64,000 nucleotides of DNA from Sphingobacterium multivorum (GTDB lineage: Bacteria > Bacteroidota > Bacteroidia > Sphingobacteriales > Sphingobacteriaceae), in contig NZ_CP154261.1 of the NCBI RefSeq assembly GCF_039511225.1, positions 2,604,001-2,668,000 on the forward strand. The letters run 5' to 3'. Position 1 is the stretch's first letter, and the number at the start of each line of letters is the position of its first letter. The position numbers were made by a program, and so were the translations under genes. Below the pieces are notes generated by a model that saw nothing but the letters and a program-made list of their open reading frames with translations, was not told where the DNA came from and did no database searches. Shown here piece by piece: positions 24,657-34,594 of this stretch.

Positions 24657-24794
24657 GACCTGATCGATATTTGTCTGTATTCAAATGTACATATTTCTGT
24701 CAGCTCTACGACATTGATTGACTCTATTTTTGGTCAGGAAAAAGATTATTGAAAATAAAGTCTACTAATATTATAGAATTTATTTTATGTTTAC

Positions 24795-24802
24795 TATATT
24801 TG
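24795..24802 (+). promoter_or_regulatory. TAnnTTTG promoter element of SusC operon
   Basis: TATATTTG matches the Bacteroidota -7 element TAnnTTTG exactly. A convincing -33 TTG was not found. It precedes the leader ORFs and the SusC gene, giving a leader of about 280 nt. Confidence 0.5.
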
Positions 24803-24859: not shown

Positions 24860-24895
24860 ATGATCACAATGTTTCACTTAATTCATTATTTATGA
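24860..24895 (+). CDS. Leader mini-ORF 1 (11 codons)
   Basis: ATG at 24860 opens an 11-codon frame (MITMFHLIHYL) that ends in a TGA overlapping the ATG of the next leader ORF (ATGA). It is only notable together with leader ORF 2 and its place in the SusC operon leader. Translation would deliver ribosomes to the second ORF. Confidence 0.3.
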   Translation: MITMFHLIHYL

Positions 24896-24996
24896 ACGGC
24901 AAATTTTATCTAAACCCTTTCCAACCGAGCGCAGGTCTGCGCAATGGTACATCCTTTTGTTCTGATTTCAATAAGCGAATGTGTAGCTGCGGTTAA
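24892..24996 (+). CDS. Cys-containing leader peptide upstream of SusC
   Basis: This is a 34-codon frame. Cysteines are at positions 23, 31 and 33, and the peptide ends RMCSCG, so two Cys codons lie just before the stop. It begins in an ATGA overlap with mini-ORF 1 and ends 92 nt before the SusC start. Short leader peptides with clustered Cys codons near the end are a known way to sense cysteinyl-tRNA supply in other bacteria. Here that role is inferred, and it fits the sulfur-related genes downstream. Confidence 0.45.
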   Translation: MNGKFYLNPFQPSAGLRNGTSFCSDFNKRMCSCG

Positions 24997-25088
24997 AGGG
25001 AAGTATTTCTTTCTATAAAAGCAGCTTTTTCTGACAAGTAATCAATTGGCGTTGGCACTTGTAAATATTCACTGTTAAAATTTTACCT

Positions 25089-28000
25089 ATGAAAAATAGC
25101 GTATGGAAGTACGCCGTGACAATTTTTTTGTCACATGGTTTGCTATTGCCTGCATTTTCGCAGCAAGCTGAGCCCCTTATTAACGCAACCTTAAAAGGTG
25201 TTGTATTGGATTCGATTACCAATCGGCCTATTGAAGGTGTTACCATAAAGCTCGAAGGTGTTACGCACCAAGTAAAGACCGACGCGTCGGGAAGATTTCA
25301 GTTTGTCACGGGGCAACGGCTTCCGTTGACATTCTCCACTTCATTTTTGGGATATAAAGGTCGAAAGATTACCGCACGGGAGGCGCAGATTCAGATCTTG
25401 CTTCAACCGAGCGTTTCTGACCTGGATGAAGTGGTCGTTGTGGGCTACGGTATACAAAAACGAAGAAGCCTTACGGGCGCAGTTGCCAAGATCGACGCTG
25501 CCGAAGTCAACAAAATTCCGGTAGCCAGTTTTGATGCCCAGTTGCAGGGTAAACTCTCCGGAGTGCAGGTTTCCACCAACTCGGGTGTCCCCGGCGAAAG
25601 TATCTTTCTGCGGGTTCGCGGAACAACATCCATCAACTCCAGTAGCGATCCCTTATATATTATTGATGGCGTATTCTTAAACAATACCTCGCTTCAGAAT
25701 ATCGGACTTGGTGGACGGACCAGTTCACCGCTCACAGATATCAACCCGGCAGATATCGAGTCGATTGAGGTGCTCAAAGATGCTTCGGCAACTGCAATTT
25801 ATGGCTCCCGGGGGGCCAATGGTGTAATTATCATTACCACCAAAAAGGGAAGCTACGGTAGCCGGACCAAAATTGACCTTAACCTGCAGGGAGGCTGGGC
25901 TGAAGCTAATAAATCTTTGTTGCCCAAACTGGCTACAGGTCCCGAAACGGCAACCCTCGCCAACGAGTGGTGGATAAACTCCGGACTGGACAATCCGGCA
26001 TTGAAACAGACTTTCGCCAACAGGCCTTACCGCCCTGTCTCGGAAGGCGGGAAAGGAAATCCCGAAGATCAGCCTACTTACGATCGCCTTGGTTTCCTCT
26101 TGCGCCACGGGAAGCTGCAGGATTATAACATCGGTATACAAGGGGGCGGCGACAAATCGCGGTTTTATATTGGTGCCGGCTACACAGGCCAGGAAGCTTT
26201 TATCAAGGTGATCGACTTCTCGCGTACCAATCTCAAGTTTAATTTTGACCATCAGATCAGCAGCCGTGTGAAGATCGGTCTGACCAATAATTTTTCCAGA
26301 ACTTACCGCAATCAGGCACGTACAGGCGATGGCCCACAGGTAAGCCTGTTCAATTCGGCCGTTTCTTCGGCAACGAATGTGCCGATATTCAATACCGATG
26401 GATCAATCAACGGCACCGATAATACGTATACCCTGGTAGACAACTACGATGTTAATACCACAAGTCTGCGTTATGTGGGAAGTGCCTTTGCGGAAATCGA
26501 TCTGCTAAAGGGACTAAAATTCAAATCCAGCTTTAGTGCCGACTATAACCTCTACGACGAATCACAATACTGGAACAGTAAAACCAGTATCGGTATTGCG
26601 AATAATAATCAGGCCACCTCGGGAATATCAAGAAATGCAACCTGGATCAATGAGCAAACCTTGTCGTATCAGAATGCCTTCGGTAAGCATAGCCTCAATG
26701 CTATTTTGGGAAATACTTTGCAGAGCAATGTGCTTGATTACAAGTATTTGGAGGGGAATGGTTTTGCCAATGATTCCTTTAAACAGATCTCATCGGCAGC
26801 CAATATCATTGCCGCCGACAACTGGACCAAATATACCATTGCTTCCTATTTTGGAAGGGTAGGTTATAGCTATGCTGACCGTTATTTTGCAGAGGCAACC
26901 CTGCGGGCAGATGGCTCGTCCAAGTTTGGTGCCAACAACCGATGGGGGTATTTTCCCGCTTTTTCGGCGGGCTGGCGGATTAGCCAAGAAGCCTTTCTGG
27001 CGGATCAAACCTGGTTAAACGACCTGAAAATAAGGGCTTCCTATGGATTGACGGGCAATCAGGCCGGAATCAGCAATTTCGCCGCCAGAGGTCTTTGGTC
27101 GGGCAATGAAAAATATGCGGACAGCTATGGCAAGGTGTTGCCAAGTACAGGGCCTTTCCAGCTGGGCAACGAAAATCTGCGCTGGGAGAAAACAGCACAG
27201 GCCGATCTTGGGCTAGATGTGGCGTTATTCAAAAATCGCCTGTCCATTACCGTGGATCTTTATCATAAATATACCTCCGATCTGCTGCTCGAGCGACCTA
27301 TTGTCGGCAGTTCCGGTTTTTCAAAGTATTGGGCCAATGTGGGCGAGATCAGCAACAAAGGCTATGAAGTGTTGATCAATTCGCTCAACGTGAAAACAAA
27401 AGACTTTACCTGGAATACAAGCTTCAACATCTCGGGTAATAAAAATAAAATCGAGAAACTGCCAACGCAGATCACCCAGTATACCCGCGATTGGGTGATC
27501 CTGAAAGAAGGTTATTCGCTCAACTCATTCTGGCTGTATGAGCAGTTGTATGTCGATCCACAGACCGGAAAGGCGGTATTTGACGGACAGCTGAGCGATG
27601 GTTCTTTGCCCACTTCGGCACGCAAGGTATTTCGCAATGCCTATCCCAAGTTTTATGGTGGTATAGGCAATACCTTTACCTATAAAAACTTCGATCTGGG
27701 TGTAGACTTTAGTTTTCAATATGGCAATTACGCGGTGAACCTCAATCGCTATTTCAGAGAGCGTAATCCCAGCAGTGGTGGGGTGTTTCAAAATGTGCTT
27801 AACAGATGGCAACAACCCGGGGATATCACCGATGTGCCCCGGCTGACATCGGAAGGGCTCAACTATACCATCGATGCCAATAGCCGTTATCTCGAAGATG
27901 CCTCGTTTTTGAAACTCAGACAATTGTCATTTGGATATAAACTCCCGAAAGAGCTGGTAGAGCGGGCTAAACTGACTGCTGCGCGTATCTATTTTGTAGG

Positions 28001-28142
28001 TTCCAACCTCTTTGTCTGGAGCAAATATACAGGCGATCCGGAATCGAATGTCACCAGCAACCCAAATGCGCAGGGGATAGGTTCATTTGGAACTCCACCA
28101 CAGCCCCGTACGTTTCAACTTGGGCTCAATGTTACTCTATAA
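25089..28142 (+). CDS. SusC-family TonB-linked outer membrane transporter
   Basis: This 1017-aa protein has a signal peptide (to about residue 25, LLPAFSQQ), a carboxypeptidase-regulatory-like domain (about 35-110) and the TonB-box-like LDEVVVVGYG. The plug has the SusC signatures DPLYIIDGVFL and SIEVLKDASATAIYGSRGANGVIIITTKKG. A large beta-barrel ends with RTFQLGLNVTL. It pairs with the SusD lipoprotein encoded 25 bp downstream to import a ligand into the periplasm. The ligand is unknown; the rest of the operon points to a sulfur compound rather than a glycan, since no glycosidase is present. Confidence 0.95.
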   Translation: MKNSVWKYAVTIFLSHGLLLPAFSQQAEPLINATLKGVVLDSITNRPIEGVTIKLEGVTHQVKTDASGRFQFVTGQRLPLTFSTSFLGYKGRKITAREAQIQILLQPSVSDLDEVVVVGYGIQKRRSLTGAVAKIDAAEVNKIPVASFDAQLQGKLSGVQVSTNSGVPGESIFLRVRGTTSINSSSDPLYIIDGVFLNNTSLQNIGLGGRTSSPLTDINPADIESIEVLKDASATAIYGSRGANGVIIITTKKGSYGSRTKIDLNLQGGWAEANKSLLPKLATGPETATLANEWWINSGLDNPALKQTFANRPYRPVSEGGKGNPEDQPTYDRLGFLLRHGKLQDYNIGIQGGGDKSRFYIGAGYTGQEAFIKVIDFSRTNLKFNFDHQISSRVKIGLTNNFSRTYRNQARTGDGPQVSLFNSAVSSATNVPIFNTDGSINGTDNTYTLVDNYDVNTTSLRYVGSAFAEIDLLKGLKFKSSFSADYNLYDESQYWNSKTSIGIANNNQATSGISRNATWINEQTLSYQNAFGKHSLNAILGNTLQSNVLDYKYLEGNGFANDSFKQISSAANIIAADNWTKYTIASYFGRVGYSYADRYFAEATLRADGSSKFGANNRWGYFPAFSAGWRISQEAFLADQTWLNDLKIRASYGLTGNQAGISNFAARGLWSGNEKYADSYGKVLPSTGPFQLGNENLRWEKTAQADLGLDVALFKNRLSITVDLYHKYTSDLLLERPIVGSSGFSKYWANVGEISNKGYEVLINSLNVKTKDFTWNTSFNISGNKNKIEKLPTQITQYTRDWVILKEGYSLNSFWLYEQLYVDPQTGKAVFDGQLSDGSLPTSARKVFRNAYPKFYGGIGNTFTYKNFDLGVDFSFQYGNYAVNLNRYFRERNPSSGGVFQNVLNRWQQPGDITDVPRLTSEGLNYTIDANSRYLEDASFLKLRQLSFGYKLPKELVERAKLTAARIYFVGSNLFVWSKYTGDPESNVTSNPNAQGIGSFGTPPQPRTFQLGLNVTL

Positions 28143-28167: not shown

Positions 28168-29535
28168 ATGAAAAAAATTATATATTTCCTTTATCCACTT
28201 CTTGTCCTTCAGCTCAGTGGCTGCAGTTCTTTTTTGGAAGTTGAGCCCAGAAGTTCTGTATCTGATGAAGTGACTATTGTCGATGCGAGTTCTGCTGCAA
28301 CAGCAGTACGAGGCATCTACTCTGCACTTCGGTCCAACGATTATTATGGTTATAGCTTTCAGCTGCTGGGATTCTTTTCGGCAGACAATATTGTATATCG
28401 AGGTAGCCAGACTGTCCATCAGACCCTAACCAATCATACGGTTAAATCCGACCTTGCCGTGTTGGCTACCGCATGGAACCAGATTTATGCCACCATCAAT
28501 AGGACCAACCATGTAATCAGCAAAGTACCCAACCTAGCGTTGACGACGACTTTCACCGAAGCTTACCGCAACCAGCTTGTGGGGGAAGCCTATTTTGTGC
28601 GCGCACTGGCGTATTTTGATCTGGCCAGAACCTGGGGTGGTGTACAGATCGTGTTGCAGCCGACAACTTCGGCCAGCAGTCTGCCGCAGGTCAAAAGAAG
28701 CTCCCTGGCCGACACCTATGCGCAGGTGCTGCAGGACCTGCAAAAAGCGGAACAGCTCTTGCCCAATGACACCAATCGCATCCGCGCTACCAAGAAAACA
28801 GCCCGCGCGCTGCTGGCAAGATTTTACCTCTACCAGAAAAACTGGAGCGAAGCCATAAAATATGCATCCTATATTATTGACGACAACGCCAATTATAGCT
28901 TGGTCAATCCATACCGCTCGTTTTATGCCAACAATACCTCCAACACCAAAGAGTCTGTCTTCGAATTGGTCTATGATATCAACAATACCAGCGGTCAGGC
29001 CAGTCAATGGTTATCGGGCAATAATGGCGGGACTGCATGGATCAGACCTTCGCAGGGGATCTACGACCTGCTGGTGGATCCCACGATCGGGGGAGACCGT
29101 GCTGCGCTCGTATCCAAAACCTCTTCATCCACCGATCCGAATATCCTGATTGGCAATCTCTATTACCGAACAGACCGTACTGATCCCGTCTTTTTAATCC
29201 GTACGGCCGAGCTTTATCTGATCCGTGCCGAAGCCTTGGCTCAGCGGAATGGTTCGGGCGATCTGACAGCAGCATTGGCTGACTTAAATGCCGTACGCTC
29301 GCGCGCCAACATTAAACCGTTGCAAGGTCTGGGAGCTGCAGCACTGCTGCAGGCCGTGGAAGATGAAAATCGCGTGGAATTTGCGCTGGAGAACCATCGC
29401 TGGTATGATCTTTTGCGGACGGGACGTGCACAGCAGGTGCTTAATATTTCTTCCGTGAATAGGCTTTTGCTGCCGATACCGTACGCTCAGGTTTCGATAG
29501 ATCCGGATCTACAGCAAAATCCTGGCTTGGATTGA
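28168..29535 (+). CDS. SusD/RagB-family surface lipoprotein
   Basis: This 455-aa lipoprotein has a lipobox LQLSGC (Cys19). Typical SusD features are the early TPR-like helices with EAYFVRALAYFDLARTWGG near 140-160, and a C-terminal part with RTAELYLIRAEALAQRNG, DLNAVRSRAN and VEDENRVEFALENHRWYDLLRTGRA. The protein forms the lid over the SusC channel and binds substrate. The length is slightly short for the family. It is followed by a T8 tract that may weaken downstream transcription. Confidence 0.95.
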   Translation: MKKIIYFLYPLLVLQLSGCSSFLEVEPRSSVSDEVTIVDASSAATAVRGIYSALRSNDYYGYSFQLLGFFSADNIVYRGSQTVHQTLTNHTVKSDLAVLATAWNQIYATINRTNHVISKVPNLALTTTFTEAYRNQLVGEAYFVRALAYFDLARTWGGVQIVLQPTTSASSLPQVKRSSLADTYAQVLQDLQKAEQLLPNDTNRIRATKKTARALLARFYLYQKNWSEAIKYASYIIDDNANYSLVNPYRSFYANNTSNTKESVFELVYDINNTSGQASQWLSGNNGGTAWIRPSQGIYDLLVDPTIGGDRAALVSKTSSSTDPNILIGNLYYRTDRTDPVFLIRTAELYLIRAEALAQRNGSGDLTAALADLNAVRSRANIKPLQGLGAAALLQAVEDENRVEFALENHRWYDLLRTGRAQQVLNISSVNRLLLPIPYAQVSIDPDLQQNPGLD

Positions 29536-29575: not shown

Positions 29576-30925
29576 ATGACCATATTAACAGACTCTCATT
29601 TTTTTAAGCGCCATCGCTCAGCGATCGCATACATTGGCCTGATTTTCTTTTTGATACTAAGTATCCCTTACGACCCCAATCTTTTTAAGGACCGTTCATG
29701 TGGGGATCTGTTTTCCTTGGAGAACTGGTTTGCGTTGGCCACTTACCGCACATCTTTTATTGCGGAGAGCCCTTACGTCGGTACGGATGTACGCGGATAT
29801 TACAATTGGGCTATTGCGCTGCTGCTCGCGTTGTTGCTATTTTGGGCCTTTGGTCGTAAAATCAGGCAAAGTTTTCAGGCCAATGATGATAGTGTATTTT
29901 ATTGGCTTCGCGTCCTGCTACGCTATCGTTTAGCCCTGGCAATGATTTTCATTGGTCTTGTCAAAATCATCCCTATACAACTTCCCGAACCGACCATTAG
30001 CGAGCTGCATACCGAATACGGTGATTTCCTGCTCTGGAAGCTCTATTACCTGACCAACGGCATTGCAACCGCGGGCTATCTACCGGTAATTGGTGCACTG
30101 GAGATTGTGAGTGGACTCTTTTTACTGAACCGGCGCACAGCAATCATCGGGTCGGGGCTGCTTATCGCTGTATTGCTCAATGTTGTTATCGTCAACTATG
30201 TCTACGAAATCGGTGAGCAGGTGTATAGTTCATTTTTACTACTGTTTGCGGTCGTGATCTTCTCGTACGACTGGCCCCGTTTTTATCAGCTCCTGATCAA
30301 AAAGGGAGCAACTGTTCCCGACGGGTTTTGGCCTGTATATGGACGCCGCATTGCGCGCATTCGCCCTTATCTGCAGGTCTTATTCCTGCTACTGATAGCG
30401 GTATTTAGCGTGCAGGCTTACTTGAGCTGGAAAAATTCGGATTATCCCTTCCCCGATGAAAAAGGGTTGGAAGGAGCAGCAGGGGTATACAATGTGAAAG
30501 ATTTCGTGTGGAAGGGCGATACCATCCCGTATTCGCTGAGCGATACATTGCGGTGGAAGGACGTAGTTTTTGAAAAATGGAATACGCTCAGCATACGCGG
30601 AAACCGTTCTGTACGGGTTGATAGCCTCAAACCACGTATCGCCTTCAACCGCGAGCGTAACTACGAATACCTAGGCAATGGTGGCCGCGAATTCTTTGCT
30701 TATGCGATCAAAAAAGGAGCAAACAAGGCGGAGACAGCGATCAAATTGACGGGAAAGGTCAGTAAAGGCCACACCTTTTCCTTTGTGGTCAATCGCCCGG
30801 ATAAGCGCACGCTTGTGCTTGATGGTGTCAACCAACTCGGCGATTCCCTGCATGTGCGCCTGGAGAAAATAAACAAGAAATACCTCTTGCAGGAGGGACG
30901 CAGAAAGCCGATCCGTATTTATTAA
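29576..30925 (+). CDS. DoxX-like membrane protein with periplasmic C-domain (A)
   Basis: This 449-aa protein has about seven membrane helices in residues 15-290 and a soluble, beta-rich C-terminal domain (about 300-449). The segment FYWLRVLLRYRLALAMIFIGLVKIIPIQLP is nearly repeated in the next gene's product. The helical core resembles the Bacteroidota DoxX-like group, related by fold to thiosulfate:quinone oxidoreductase DoxD. That relation is inference. The tandem arrangement suggests a heteromeric membrane complex. No Cys pair or heme motif is evident. Confidence 0.6.
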   Translation: MTILTDSHFFKRHRSAIAYIGLIFFLILSIPYDPNLFKDRSCGDLFSLENWFALATYRTSFIAESPYVGTDVRGYYNWAIALLLALLLFWAFGRKIRQSFQANDDSVFYWLRVLLRYRLALAMIFIGLVKIIPIQLPEPTISELHTEYGDFLLWKLYYLTNGIATAGYLPVIGALEIVSGLFLLNRRTAIIGSGLLIAVLLNVVIVNYVYEIGEQVYSSFLLLFAVVIFSYDWPRFYQLLIKKGATVPDGFWPVYGRRIARIRPYLQVLFLLLIAVFSVQAYLSWKNSDYPFPDEKGLEGAAGVYNVKDFVWKGDTIPYSLSDTLRWKDVVFEKWNTLSIRGNRSVRVDSLKPRIAFNRERNYEYLGNGGREFFAYAIKKGANKAETAIKLTGKVSKGHTFSFVVNRPDKRTLVLDGVNQLGDSLHVRLEKINKKYLLQEGRRKPIRIY

Positions 30926-30946: not shown

Positions 30947-32416
30947 ATGGCAACGATTCAATATTTGGAAAGCACTCCAACCAGCCAGCAGGGGCAGGGC
31001 TGGAAATACTGGGAGAAAGTGGGATTTAGATTTACTTTTATTTTCTTTATCCTGATGGTAGTACCCCTGGATGGGGACTGGTACGAAAAAGTATTTAAAC
31101 CCGATTCGTTATACGATTGGATGGCAACGATCGCCGGTGGCTCGCGCACAGGTTGGATAGAAATAGACAGCGAAAGTGGCAAATGGGGGTTCGCGTCGTA
31201 CACGTCCTGGTGGCTCAATGGCGTGATAGCTGTGCTGGGCGCTTCCATTTGGACGATATTGGCCCGGAATAGCAAGGTGCAACGCTACGATGCGCTTTAT
31301 TATTGGTTGCGGGTGTTGGTACGTTACCGCATTGCTTTGGGACTTATCGCCTTTGGATTTATCAAGTTCTTTCCGATGCAGATGCCATTTCCATCGCTTG
31401 CCAATCTGAATACCGACATCGGCGAATATGCTCCCTTTAAGTTGTACTGGCAGATCGTCGGTGTATCCTATAAGTATGAGATTTTCTTAGGCTTTTTGGA
31501 GATCGCCGCAGGAAGTTTACTCTTCTTCAGGCCTACTGTTGTCATCGGGGCCATTATCAATGCGGGCGTGCTCTTTAACATCGCTCATGCCAATATCGCC
31601 TATGACGGCGCGGTACACGTATACAGTTCGTATTTTGTTCTGCTTTCCCTTTTTCTATTGCTCCAGTACCTGCCAGCGATCTGGAAGCTCTTTATCTTGC
31701 GTGAACCGGTGAGCACCTATTACTATGTGCCCAAGTTTCTCAAGCAGTGGAATAAACCCCTGTATTTCGGCTTTAAGTCAGTCATTGTGGTGCTGTTTAT
31801 ATTTGTTTACGGCTTTTACCGCTATGAGCGATTCTATGATGAAGGACGTTTAAAGGAACCGGTGCTTCCAGGGCTGGCAAAAGCAGCAGGACATTATGAA
31901 GTTTCGGGTTTTCTGCTCAATGGAAAGCCACAGCCTTATTCACCGGCCGATTCGGTACGTTGGCATGAAGCCTTTTTTGAACGCTATTCGACCTTGGTCT
32001 ATAAGGTCAATAAAGCCAATTCCATCGATCTTGGCAATGGCACTCCGGCCTTGAATGATGTGCTCAAAACGTATGAATTTACAGGCCGGGCGGGAGGAAA
32101 GAACTACCTGTATTATGAAATAGACTCGGCAGAACATGCACTGTACCTGATCGACAAAAATCAGAAATTTAGTAAGGAGCAACGAAAAAAACTCGATGAA
32201 AAACTGGATGTGGGACTGAAGGCCCTGTATGGAAAAGCACAGGGCGATAGCTTAGGTATTCTGAAATGGGCTTACGAACGACCAACGCCAGAACAGATTA
32301 GACTCAAGGGGCTAGACGCCAGTGGTAATAACTTTGAAATTACGCTCGACCGGGTTAAAGAATCCTATCTCACCGGTAAAGAATGGTATATGAAAAACAC
32401 CCTCTTTACCTATTAA
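30947..32416 (+). CDS. DoxX-like membrane protein with periplasmic C-domain (B)
   Basis: This 489-aa protein is a paralogue of the preceding gene's product. It has membrane helices over about 25-295, including YYWLRVLVRYRIALGLIAFGFIKFFPMQMP, and a C-terminal soluble domain (about 305-489) with GHYEVSGFLLNGKPQPYSPADSVRW, matching AGVYNVKDFVWKGDTIPYSLSDTLRW in copy A. A conserved HANIAYDGAVHVYSSYF stretch replaces the VNYVYEIGEQVYSSFL of A. It is in the middle of the SusCD operon (21 bp gap). A role in electron transfer or sulfur oxidation at the inner membrane is possible but unproven. Confidence 0.6.
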   Translation: MATIQYLESTPTSQQGQGWKYWEKVGFRFTFIFFILMVVPLDGDWYEKVFKPDSLYDWMATIAGGSRTGWIEIDSESGKWGFASYTSWWLNGVIAVLGASIWTILARNSKVQRYDALYYWLRVLVRYRIALGLIAFGFIKFFPMQMPFPSLANLNTDIGEYAPFKLYWQIVGVSYKYEIFLGFLEIAAGSLLFFRPTVVIGAIINAGVLFNIAHANIAYDGAVHVYSSYFVLLSLFLLLQYLPAIWKLFILREPVSTYYYVPKFLKQWNKPLYFGFKSVIVVLFIFVYGFYRYERFYDEGRLKEPVLPGLAKAAGHYEVSGFLLNGKPQPYSPADSVRWHEAFFERYSTLVYKVNKANSIDLGNGTPALNDVLKTYEFTGRAGGKNYLYYEIDSAEHALYLIDKNQKFSKEQRKKLDEKLDVGLKALYGKAQGDSLGILKWAYERPTPEQIRLKGLDASGNNFEITLDRVKESYLTGKEWYMKNTLFTY

Positions 32417-32438: not shown

Positions 32439-33890
32439 ATGAATAGAAGATCATTTATCCACCGTTCAGCTGTCCTTTTCACGCTTGCTTCGGCAGGCCA
32501 GGGCATATCCTGTTTTGGAAATACCGATCACAGGGGGGCGGGCTACAGTATCAAACAGTTCGAAGATGAGGGCCTCGCACAGTTTTCCTATGCGATTTTG
32601 GCCGATAAGAAAATTGTGCTTGTGGACCCTGCCCGTGATCCCAGGCCTTATTACGCTTATGCAAAGGAACAGGGTGCCACAATTATCGCCGTTGTGGAGA
32701 CCCATCCGCATGCTGATTTTGTGAGTTCACATCTGGAGATCCACCAAGAAGGAAAAATTCCGATTTATGTCAGCAAGCTAGTTCGTGCAACGTATCCGCA
32801 TCATACGTTTGATAATGGCGATAGGTTGAAGATTTCGGACCATATTGTGTTGCATGCCATCAACACCGCTGGTCATTCACCTGATAGTATCTCTATTCTG
32901 TTAAAAGAAAACGGTCGCGATGTGGCGATCTTTTCGGGGGATGCGGTGCTGATTGGCGGGGTGGGAAGGCCCGATTTGCGCGAGTATTCGGGTGAGCAGG
33001 CGACAGTACGCGAAAAATTGGCGCGGCAGCTCTATCATACCGTGCATGATGTCTATGCCAACTTAGGCGATCAGGTGCTTCTGTATCCGGGCCATGGTGC
33101 TGGGTCGCTCTGTGGCAATGCCATAAAAGGCGCGAAGCAAAGTACCATTGGTGCAGAAAGAACGCATAATTTTGCCTTCCAGCAACAATCCGAAGAAGCG
33201 TTTGTCAAACAGATACTAGCAGACCGTCCACCCATACCGATCTATTTTCCCTATAATGTGGCGTTAAATCGTCGGGGAGCAAAGCCATTGTTGGCTTCGT
33301 TGTCGGGTATTTCATTGGTTTCGGCAGCTGCGGTGCCTCATGGATCAAGCACTGTCCTTGACACACGCTCAGCTTCAAAATTTAGAGCGTCGCATTTTCC
33401 GGAGGCCATTAATATCCCCGAACGGAGCAAGTCGGAATCTTGGGTCGGGACTTTTATTGAACCGAAAGACGGTTTTTATCTCGTTGTGGATACCAAAGAA
33501 CAGGGGCAGCTGCAGCTTGAAAAATTGGCCAAAATTGGCTATGAGCAGTTTGTAAAAGGGATTGTGCTGTATGGGGATTTCGCAGGGCAGCCTTCGACAG
33601 CTTTTGACCAGACTGCTTTCGACCGGGCGCAAGATCACTATTTTATCGTCGACGTACGCACCGCCGAGGAGGCTAAGGCCGGGCCAGTATTCAAGGGGGC
33701 GCATAACATTCCGCTGGCGGAACTGAAGCAGCATATTGCCGAGCTACCGGTCGATAAACCTATTGTCGTGCACTGCGCTTCGGGTTATCGTTCGGCCATT
33801 GCAAGTAGCCTGATCAATGAATCGCTGCCAAAAGCGCAGGTCTGGGATATCGGAGAACATATTAAAACCTACAAGCAATCGGTGAATTAA
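32439..33890 (+). CDS. CstB-like MBL-fold / rhodanese protein (persulfide dioxygenase type)
   Basis: This 483-aa exported protein has a twin-arginine-like N-terminus (NRRSFIHRS) and a Cys at 25. The metallo-beta-lactamase domain (about 35-285) has His89-Pro-His91-Ala-Asp93, then AGHSPDS, GDAVLIGGVGRPDL and YPGHGAGSLCG. This is the pattern of ETHE1/CstB persulfide dioxygenases. Two rhodanese domains follow. The first (about 305-380) lacks a Cys in the active loop. The second (about 400-480) has Cys446 in VHCASGYRS. This MBL-pseudo-rhodanese-rhodanese order is that of CstB, which oxidises persulfides. Tat export would place it in the periplasm. Confidence 0.85.
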   Translation: MNRRSFIHRSAVLFTLASAGQGISCFGNTDHRGAGYSIKQFEDEGLAQFSYAILADKKIVLVDPARDPRPYYAYAKEQGATIIAVVETHPHADFVSSHLEIHQEGKIPIYVSKLVRATYPHHTFDNGDRLKISDHIVLHAINTAGHSPDSISILLKENGRDVAIFSGDAVLIGGVGRPDLREYSGEQATVREKLARQLYHTVHDVYANLGDQVLLYPGHGAGSLCGNAIKGAKQSTIGAERTHNFAFQQQSEEAFVKQILADRPPIPIYFPYNVALNRRGAKPLLASLSGISLVSAAAVPHGSSTVLDTRSASKFRASHFPEAINIPERSKSESWVGTFIEPKDGFYLVVDTKEQGQLQLEKLAKIGYEQFVKGIVLYGDFAGQPSTAFDQTAFDRAQDHYFIVDVRTAEEAKAGPVFKGAHNIPLAELKQHIAELPVDKPIVVHCASGYRSAIASSLINESLPKAQVWDIGEHIKTYKQSVN

Positions 33891-33922: not shown

Positions 33923-34594
33923 ATGAAAGATTTAAAACTATTGGCTACGATGTTGTTAGCAGTGGCAGTGTTACTCAATATGACGAACTGCCAATCCAGA
34001 CAGGACACCCAGGAAGCCGTAAAAAATAGTCAGGTTTCGTTTAAAAAGGAAGAAGGAGTGCGCTTTAAGCAGGAGCTCGAAAGCCTGAATAAAACGAATA
34101 AAGTGCCGGTACAGATTCCCGACAATCCGCGGATCGTTTATGCGACCGAACAGGATGTGCTGGAGCTGGAAAACGGCATTGTGCTGTTTGGATGGCCCAG
34201 TTGTCCATGGTTTCGCAATGCCATAACGCCATTGCTGGAATTTGCCCAGGAGGAAAAGGCGGCCATCTATTACCTCAATATCCACGATATCCGGGATCTC
34301 AAAGAGAAGGATAAAGAAGGTAAGGTGATCACAACCAAGGCGGGTAGCCCCGGCTATGAAGCTATTTTGGCCAAATTTCATGATATCCTCAATCCCTATA
34401 CGGCTGTGGGCGTAGACTCTATCAAACGGATTTCTTCACCAACGGTGTTATTTATTGAAAAAGGCAAAGGTGTGCATAAGGTTGTTTCGACGGTCGTATC
34501 GCAGACCGATCCGAAGATCAAGCTCGATAGCACACAACAGCAGGAGTTAAAGCAACGGTATCGCGCATATTTTTTAGATGAACATACGATTTAA
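33923..34594 (+). CDS. Thioredoxin-like lipoprotein with a single active-site Cys
   Basis: This 223-aa lipoprotein has a lipobox LLNMTNC (Cys23). From about residue 70 the protein reads as a thioredoxin-like fold: IVLFGWPSCPWFRNAITPLLEFA, a long loop, then the cis-Pro segment SSPTVLFIEKGKGV. The usual CxxC is reduced to one Cys (Cys94, followed by PWF), so it may form mixed disulfides or persulfides rather than act as a dithiol oxidoreductase. The shape recalls bacteriocin-transport-accessory-type thioredoxins. It lies 33 bp after the CstB-like gene. Confidence 0.7.
   Translation: MKDLKLLATMLLAVAVLLNMTNCQSRQDTQEAVKNSQVSFKKEEGVRFKQELESLNKTNKVPVQIPDNPRIVYATEQDVLELENGIVLFGWPSCPWFRNAITPLLEFAQEEKAAIYYLNIHDIRDLKEKDKEGKVITTKAGSPGYEAILAKFHDILNPYTAVGVDSIKRISSPTVLFIEKGKGVHKVVSTVVSQTDPKIKLDSTQQQELKQRYRAYFLDEHTI

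Follow-up and report, generated by a model that had tools for sequence, protein, structure and literature searches.

We analyzed the region ahead of a SusC/SusD operon in a 64,000-nt stretch of Sphingobacterium multivorum DNA (the window), which is part of a single 5.95 Mb contig (Table 1). The positions originally predicted for two short ORFs, the promoter box and SusC proved exact, base for base, and both ORFs do lie between the TAnnTTTG box and SusC. The longer of the two, a leader ORF of 34 codons, has Cys codons at positions 23, 31, and 33, i.e., three within the last twelve as had been claimed, and reads MCSCG-TAA at its end. It overlaps an 11-codon ORF by ATGA, the ATG of the leader occupying 24892-24894 and the TGA of the shorter ORF 24893-24895.

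Table 1. Features of the SusC leader and the downstream operon, in positions of the window.
Feature	Position	Strand	Basis or remark
Palindromic box TCTACTAATATTATAGA, candidate operator for a sulfur-responsive regulator	24761..24777	+	17 nt before -7 box
-7 promoter box TATATTTG, Bacteroidota type (TAnnTTTG)	24795..24802	+	Sequence; start site inferred
11-codon ORF, MITMFHLIHYL	24860..24895	+	Sequence; ATGA overlap with leader
Leader peptide ORF, MNGKFYLNPFQPSAGLRNGTSFCSDFNKRMCSCG	24892..24996	+	Sequence; 34 codons
Regulatory tail CGA-ATG-TGT-AGC-TGC (R M C S C)	24976..24990	+	
Hairpin A, candidate attenuator; AGCTGC (Cys-codon region) pairs with GCAGCT	24985..25026	+	Predicted
U-tract (U5) after hairpin A	25026-25030	+	Sequence
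Hairpin B, ACAAGT-aat-CAATTGGCGTTG-gc-ACTTGT, 29 nt; conserved RNA element before SusC	25034..25062	+	
SusC-type TonB-dependent receptor; gene controlled in this reading	25089..28142	+	Pfam Plug, CarbopepD_reg_2
SusD-type lipoprotein	28168..29535	+	Pfam SusD-like_3, SusD_RagB
DoxX-like membrane protein 1	29576..30925	+	Weak Pfam match only
DoxX-like membrane protein 2	30947..32416	+	Same similarity cluster as DoxX-like protein 1
Metallo-beta-lactamase/rhodanese fusion	32439..33890	+	Pfam Lactamase_B + Rhodanese
223-aa protein, thioredoxin-like by eye	33923..34594	+	No Pfam match, no known family

Alignment of the upstream regions of orthologous SusC genes, as the original prediction had proposed, showed the length, frame, and Cys tail of the leader to be conserved. 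The set for this locus comprised 11 copies, namely the window (L031) and 10 relatives (L032-L041). All 11 leaders start with an identical TTATTTATGAAC in the same frame, the CGA-ATG-TGY tail begins exactly 84 nt from the ATG in every copy, and each peptide ends in RMC plus one to three residues (RMCSCG in seven, RMCS in two, RMCC and RMCSSR in one each). The ORF was not lost from otherwise preserved DNA; the reverse was seen, with the ORF kept and the flanks carrying indels. Codon differences over the 55 pairs of leaders amounted to 727 non-synonymous vs. 155 synonymous, and those at the three codon positions to 330, 478, and 436, respectively. Since third positions do not stand out, only the length, frame, and tail look constrained, and the body of the peptide would be free to evolve. 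The shorter ORF fared differently. Its ATGA overlap with the leader is real, as described above, but the coupling that had been proposed on this basis is not borne out by conservation at the locus, where the ORF is full length in four copies, eight codons long in three and absent from four. It is probably not a functional part.

On sequence comparison, the leader is a member of a multi-copy family in Sphingobacteriaceae, which is marked by the 29-nt hairpin B before SusC. When 93 genomes of the genus were searched with the leader DNA, 73 had matches, mostly via the 46-64 nt directly 5' of SusC. The hairpin loop, CAAUUGGCGUUG, is near-invariant and the stem carries compensatory changes, one pair being AU in 28 copies, GC in 11 and GU in one; 92.3% of the stem cells are paired, vs. 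29-42% when the stem is slid. In approximately 20 loci, a second copy of the hairpin, with other stems (CGTT/AACG and GTTA/TAAC), precedes the leader ORF at the promoter end. Recurrence of hairpin B near SusC starts raised the possibility of a DNA recombination site, which was set aside because the stems covary around a fixed loop and a second copy occurs at the promoter end. Within the family, a covariance model (R1) built for this element identified matches in 43 of 201 genomes. A broader model (R2) was positive for 68 of 201 order-level genomes, every one of them listed in the same family as the window; of 296 genomes from the phylum, only that of the window matched. No Rfam 15 family matched the conserved hairpin in any locus scanned; the best Rfam hit in the window leader was unrelated (E 0.5), and four other leaders (L146, L049, L254, and L347) gave nothing but a tRNA. 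Three loci (L133, L140, and L141) possess hairpin B and no leader ORF, two of them with the promoter-end copy, suggesting that the hairpin has a role without the peptide. A short palindrome of the GGAGTAYTCC type, possibly a third hairpin, occurs a few codons into SusC, both in the window (25099-25114) and at other SusC starts.

Cys codons at the leader end are a family-wide feature. An in-frame CGNATGTGY ORF was found upstream of 53 of the 72 distinct hairpin copies, and a looser rule, (R/Q)M(C/R) near a stop permitted up to six codons away, was satisfied by 56 of the 72. The third residue of this motif is Cys in 53 of the 56 tails (TGT in 39, TGC in 14) and Arg in three, and every tail is followed in the same frame by a stop after zero to three codons. 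Cys is kept even where the local frame has changed, as in L138 (HVECEC, judged by eye) and in L272 and L174 (AECRCDC). After 23 of 94 copies had been dropped as redundant, the best Cys counts among the final 10 codons of ORFs starting with ATG summed to 87 over 71 hairpin-marked loci, vs. 28.4 in dinucleotide shuffles and 40 in the highest of 200 such shuffles. Leader ends in other genera include MRMCCCRA, ..MCCC, SPGCCC, LSLCCC, SCCCRD, and KCCRCWCCCRM, and MRMCCC was also seen. An independent set of 30 further loci was picked solely by model R2, four of which were removed as redundant. At least three Cys were present in the last 10 codons in nine of the remaining 26, vs. 0.235 in shuffles (largest 2), and at least two in 15, vs. 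2.7 (largest 7); 11 loci had fewer than two. Leaders in this set end in EMGCCC, RRYCCS, KQYCCCC, RMYCCC, CYCCS, NCCCTCCCC, NCCCICCC, RMCMPCCCC, or RMCVSCCC. Deviating tails, which count against Cys sensing, also occur: a paralogue in the window genome (L093/L118) ends in MRMRR and has no Cys, with a relative in G079 (L360) ending in MRMCC; the L104/L119 leader ends in HRMRT with two Cys further back; L151 has an Arg end; and L044 ends in RMRM with TGA replacing TGT.

The link to a sulfur-type operon, originally drawn for this locus, holds across the family. At the window, the metallo-beta-lactamase/rhodanese fusion is predicted to act in sulfur transfer or persulfide handling. The protein encoded directly after SusD, which we take to be DoxX-like, is common to 12 other leader-headed operons. 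We compared 47 such operons for which enough sequence was available, derived from 49 gene chains (in L124, at 1472, and in L252, at 1929, the core matches a second time within the locus), and found members of the sulfatase similarity cluster in 14, DoxX-like proteins, usually paired, in 13 and a YeiH-type putative sulfate exporter in six, or 33 of 47 in all. Of 99 downstream proteins, 92 were used, short or near-duplicate ones having been left out by hand, and 23 of the 92 matched Sulfatase. Controls were drawn from the window genome by taking approximately every fourth of its 86 SusD genes, giving 20 loci, of which L287/L296 and L300/L302 overlap partly. The three protein groups were absent from all 20 control SusC/D operons, with none of their 52 downstream proteins being similar, and 10 hand-chosen proteins among these 52 were glycosidases or had other functions. 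Three of the five leader loci in the window genome are of the sulfur type, namely the window itself, L117 with a sulfatase, and L119 with DoxX-like proteins and a SoxC sulfite dehydrogenase. The amino acid that would be sensed thus matches the content of the operons (sulfatase, YeiH, rhodanese, SoxC).

A second predicted structure, hairpin A, is located between the leader stop and hairpin B; in the window its outer stem involves the Cys codons themselves, a pairing that is kept in most copies at this locus. In other clades, hairpin A is often GGGAAG..CUUCCC with a pyrimidine-rich stretch 5' of it. The window leader region as a whole folds no better than shuffles (z-score -0.56), and a scan with loops of 3-8 only revealed no terminator-like site on its + strand. 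Pairing was evaluated in 28 of 40 loci, with nine left out by hand (the hairpin overlaps Cys codons or has another geometry) and three because they were too short. The stretch after the stop paired with the 5' arm of hairpin A at -9.1 kcal/mol vs. -7.4 when shuffled, with p<=0.05 in seven of the 28 loci. The tail after hairpin A contained 35% T vs. a background of 30% in the same loci, and most copies are without a U-tract. Because of these T-poor tails, intrinsic termination is not general, and hairpin A is not supported as a terminator with a U-tract throughout the family. Nor do the Cys codons clearly pair, across all loci, with the RNA ahead of hairpin B: in the swap test, their downstream pairing was only weakly better than with swapped partners (mean rank 0.40, 39 loci) and clear in some clades only, so that we restrict this pairing to the window clade and a few further ones. 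As for the read-out, intrinsic termination fits the window, and Rho or translational control may fit other loci. Loci L246-L268, from other genera, contain AGGAGG-like stretches and micro-ORFs (MMC, MIC, MYC) before hairpin A; Shine-Dalgarno sites are seldom used in Bacteroidota.

The conserved frame and Cys tail of the ORF, the family-wide Cys runs, the sulfur operons downstream and the predicted pairing, all established by comparison, argue that the leader ORF is probably a cysteine-codon attenuator of a sulfur-scavenging SusC/SusD operon, with cysteine starvation as the signal that it would sense. Transcription would start just 3' of TATATTTG and a ribosome would translate the leader. With ample Cys-tRNA, the ribosome would translate all the C-terminal Cys codons and arrive at the stop, and the downstream RNA would fold into hairpin A, whose 5' arm in the window would be the Cys-codon region itself, with U5 after it; once formed, the hairpin would reduce transcription of, or access to, SusC. 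When cysteine is short, the ribosome would stall on the Cys codons, the arm would stay unpaired and RNA polymerase would proceed into SusC. In this scheme, it is the translation, the stalling, and the type of read-out (intrinsic termination, Rho, or translation) that we infer.

We consider it unlikely, though not implausible, that the leader instead encodes an arrest peptide similar to TnaC, in which the (M)RMRMC end would stall in the tunnel on a small molecule or Cys and the stalled ribosome would mask a pyrimidine-rich Rho entry site after the stop. Such a peptide would be in keeping with the conservation of RMRM in Sphingobacterium, where the first Arg is encoded by CGA in 11 cases, CGT in three, CGG in three, CGC in one and AGG in one, synonymous variation that supports translation in the leader frame. 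It is also favored by the codon before M-C or M-R, which is CGA in 55 of 56 tails (CGA makes up 13.6% of 2125 Arg codons in SusC genes), by the missing U-tract in most copies and by the G-poor, pyrimidine-rich stretch after the stop (C 21%, T 41%, G 5% in the 28 loci). In other genera, however, RM is often lost and the Cys runs stay (SPGCCC, EMGCCC, KQYCCCC), so codon sensing fits better than a specific peptide. The fixed CGA codon and the Cys-less paralogue (MRMRR, L118) are unaccounted for by Cys sensing. An RNA motif in the conserved CGAAUGUG stretch, serving as a protein site or pairing partner and making the overlying ORF incidental, is quite improbable. The nine nucleotides CGAATGTGY are near-invariant, and CGAATGTG persists in L044 and L267 even though TGA stands in place of the Cys codon; yet an in-frame stop closely follows all 56 tails, the first Arg varies synonymously, the ORF is fixed at 84 nt and differing Cys-run sequences replace the motif in other genera. 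Short ORFs are common and the window region alone folds no better than shuffles, but the notion of chance Cys codons in a non-functional ORF, picked up as a scan artefact, is scarcely credible given the Cys enrichment in both the 71 and the 26 independent loci and the 84-nt spacing in 11 of 11 copies, and is contradicted by the hairpin-chosen set, in which nine of 26 loci have at least three Cys vs. 0.235.

Besides the proposed attenuation by cysteine codons, the family shows signs of control at initiation. The exact box TCTA-N9-TAGA occurs upstream in 38 of the 71 non-redundant loci vs. 0.94 in shuffles, usually 17-19 nt 5' of TAnnTTTG, and as an operator it would probably add sulfur control at this step. 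Only exact boxes were counted, since a pattern tolerating up to two mismatches was swamped by chance (216 matches vs. 301 for the reversed control). In the window genome, this box is also found ahead of a gene group that comprises an 87-aa ORF, a family 2A encapsulin with its cysteine desulfurase cargo, and a CysE-like (serine) acetyltransferase; sulfur starvation is described as inducing an encapsulin of this type in a cyanobacterium (PMC8049743). Paralogous 87-aa proteins of no known family are found behind an operator-like box in L094 and L105, one of them beside the family 2A encapsulin operon.

Extra tRNA-Cys genes were also observed. A complete tRNA-Cys (anticodon GCA) is located inside a SusC leader at L254:9088-9159 (-), and at the same place in L361; in L254 it is flanked by a poly-Cys leader ORF (..SPGCCC) on one side and hairpin B on the other, and is additional to the genome's ordinary tRNA-Cys. 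Another extra copy (L400:6979-7050, +, in G144) follows hairpin B in an operon of SusC, SusD, a sulfatase, and a formylglycine-enzyme-like protein (enzyme names by eye). Divergent tRNA-Cys genes occur directly 3' of a SAM riboswitch at L363:1345-1572 (+), as well as in L386 and L373, and these apparently constitute sulfur-controlled tRNA-Cys transcription units; the units in L363/L370 and L386 also have the TCTA-N9-TAGA box. Second tRNA-Cys-like matches are common in several genera of Sphingobacteriaceae. Tentatively, it is conceivable that the operator, the Cys-tail leaders, the new hairpin with its CAAUUGGCGUUG loop and the extra divergent tRNA-Cys genes in or beside the operons form an integrated, RNA-centred cysteine-starvation regulon in Sphingobacteriaceae, in which the hairpin might receive a sulfur signal acting in trans or serve as an element for translation initiation. 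If so, the leader peptide and SusC would be translated under one control.

Polycysteine leaderless short ORFs are described as cysteine-responsive attenuators in mycobacteria (Canestrari et al., 2020, as presented in PMC9094748). As far as that account goes, the leader resembles them in having a short Cys-codon ORF ahead of an operon and cysteine availability as the signal. Runs of Cys codons such as theirs are found in other genera (CCC to CCCC), whereas the window has C-S-C only. The mycobacterial ORFs are leaderless, while the window ATG (24892) is 89 nt past the end of TATATTTG (24802), just 3' of which transcription presumably starts. The phylum is also different, the target is SusC/SusD TonB uptake, hairpin B and the operator are added, and we know of no shared sequence. 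Since it would work like the mycobacterial attenuators but its ORF is not leaderless, the leader is related to that class rather than a member of it. Attenuators of the trp/his/leu type have regulatory codons near the leader stop, alternative hairpins and an operon of matching metabolism, and they usually control biosynthetic operons in Proteobacteria. The family shares with them characteristic codons near the leader end, here those for Cys, which stay conserved although the remainder of the peptide diverges; unlike them, it has an outer-membrane uptake target, and a general U-tract terminator was not seen. In TnaC of the E. coli tna operon, arrest takes place near the stop codon, which is followed by a pyrimidine-rich possible Rho site, and the peptide senses excess free Trp. 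A pyrimidine-rich stretch and possible Rho site after the leader stop are common to both, but our leader peptide changes its identity from genus to genus. Leader-RNA control of genes for sulfur or amino acids also recalls the SAM riboswitch (S-box, RF00162) and the T-box; in contrast to these, the leaders scanned (window, L146, L049, L254, and L347) had no Rfam cis-regulator match.

Cysteine leaders themselves are known in mycobacteria; the placement before SusC and the RNA element appear to be new, and an exact-word search of the open-licence PMC literature returned no report of cysteine leaders before SusC. If our reading is true, Bacteroidota would possess a cysteine attenuator, several per genome, that acts on outer-membrane SusC/SusD uptake and not on biosynthesis. 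This suggests sulfur scavenging as the function of a sizeable class of SusC/D systems that are commonly taken for glycan importers; the Cys-tail leader together with hairpin B may provide a sequence signature for finding them.
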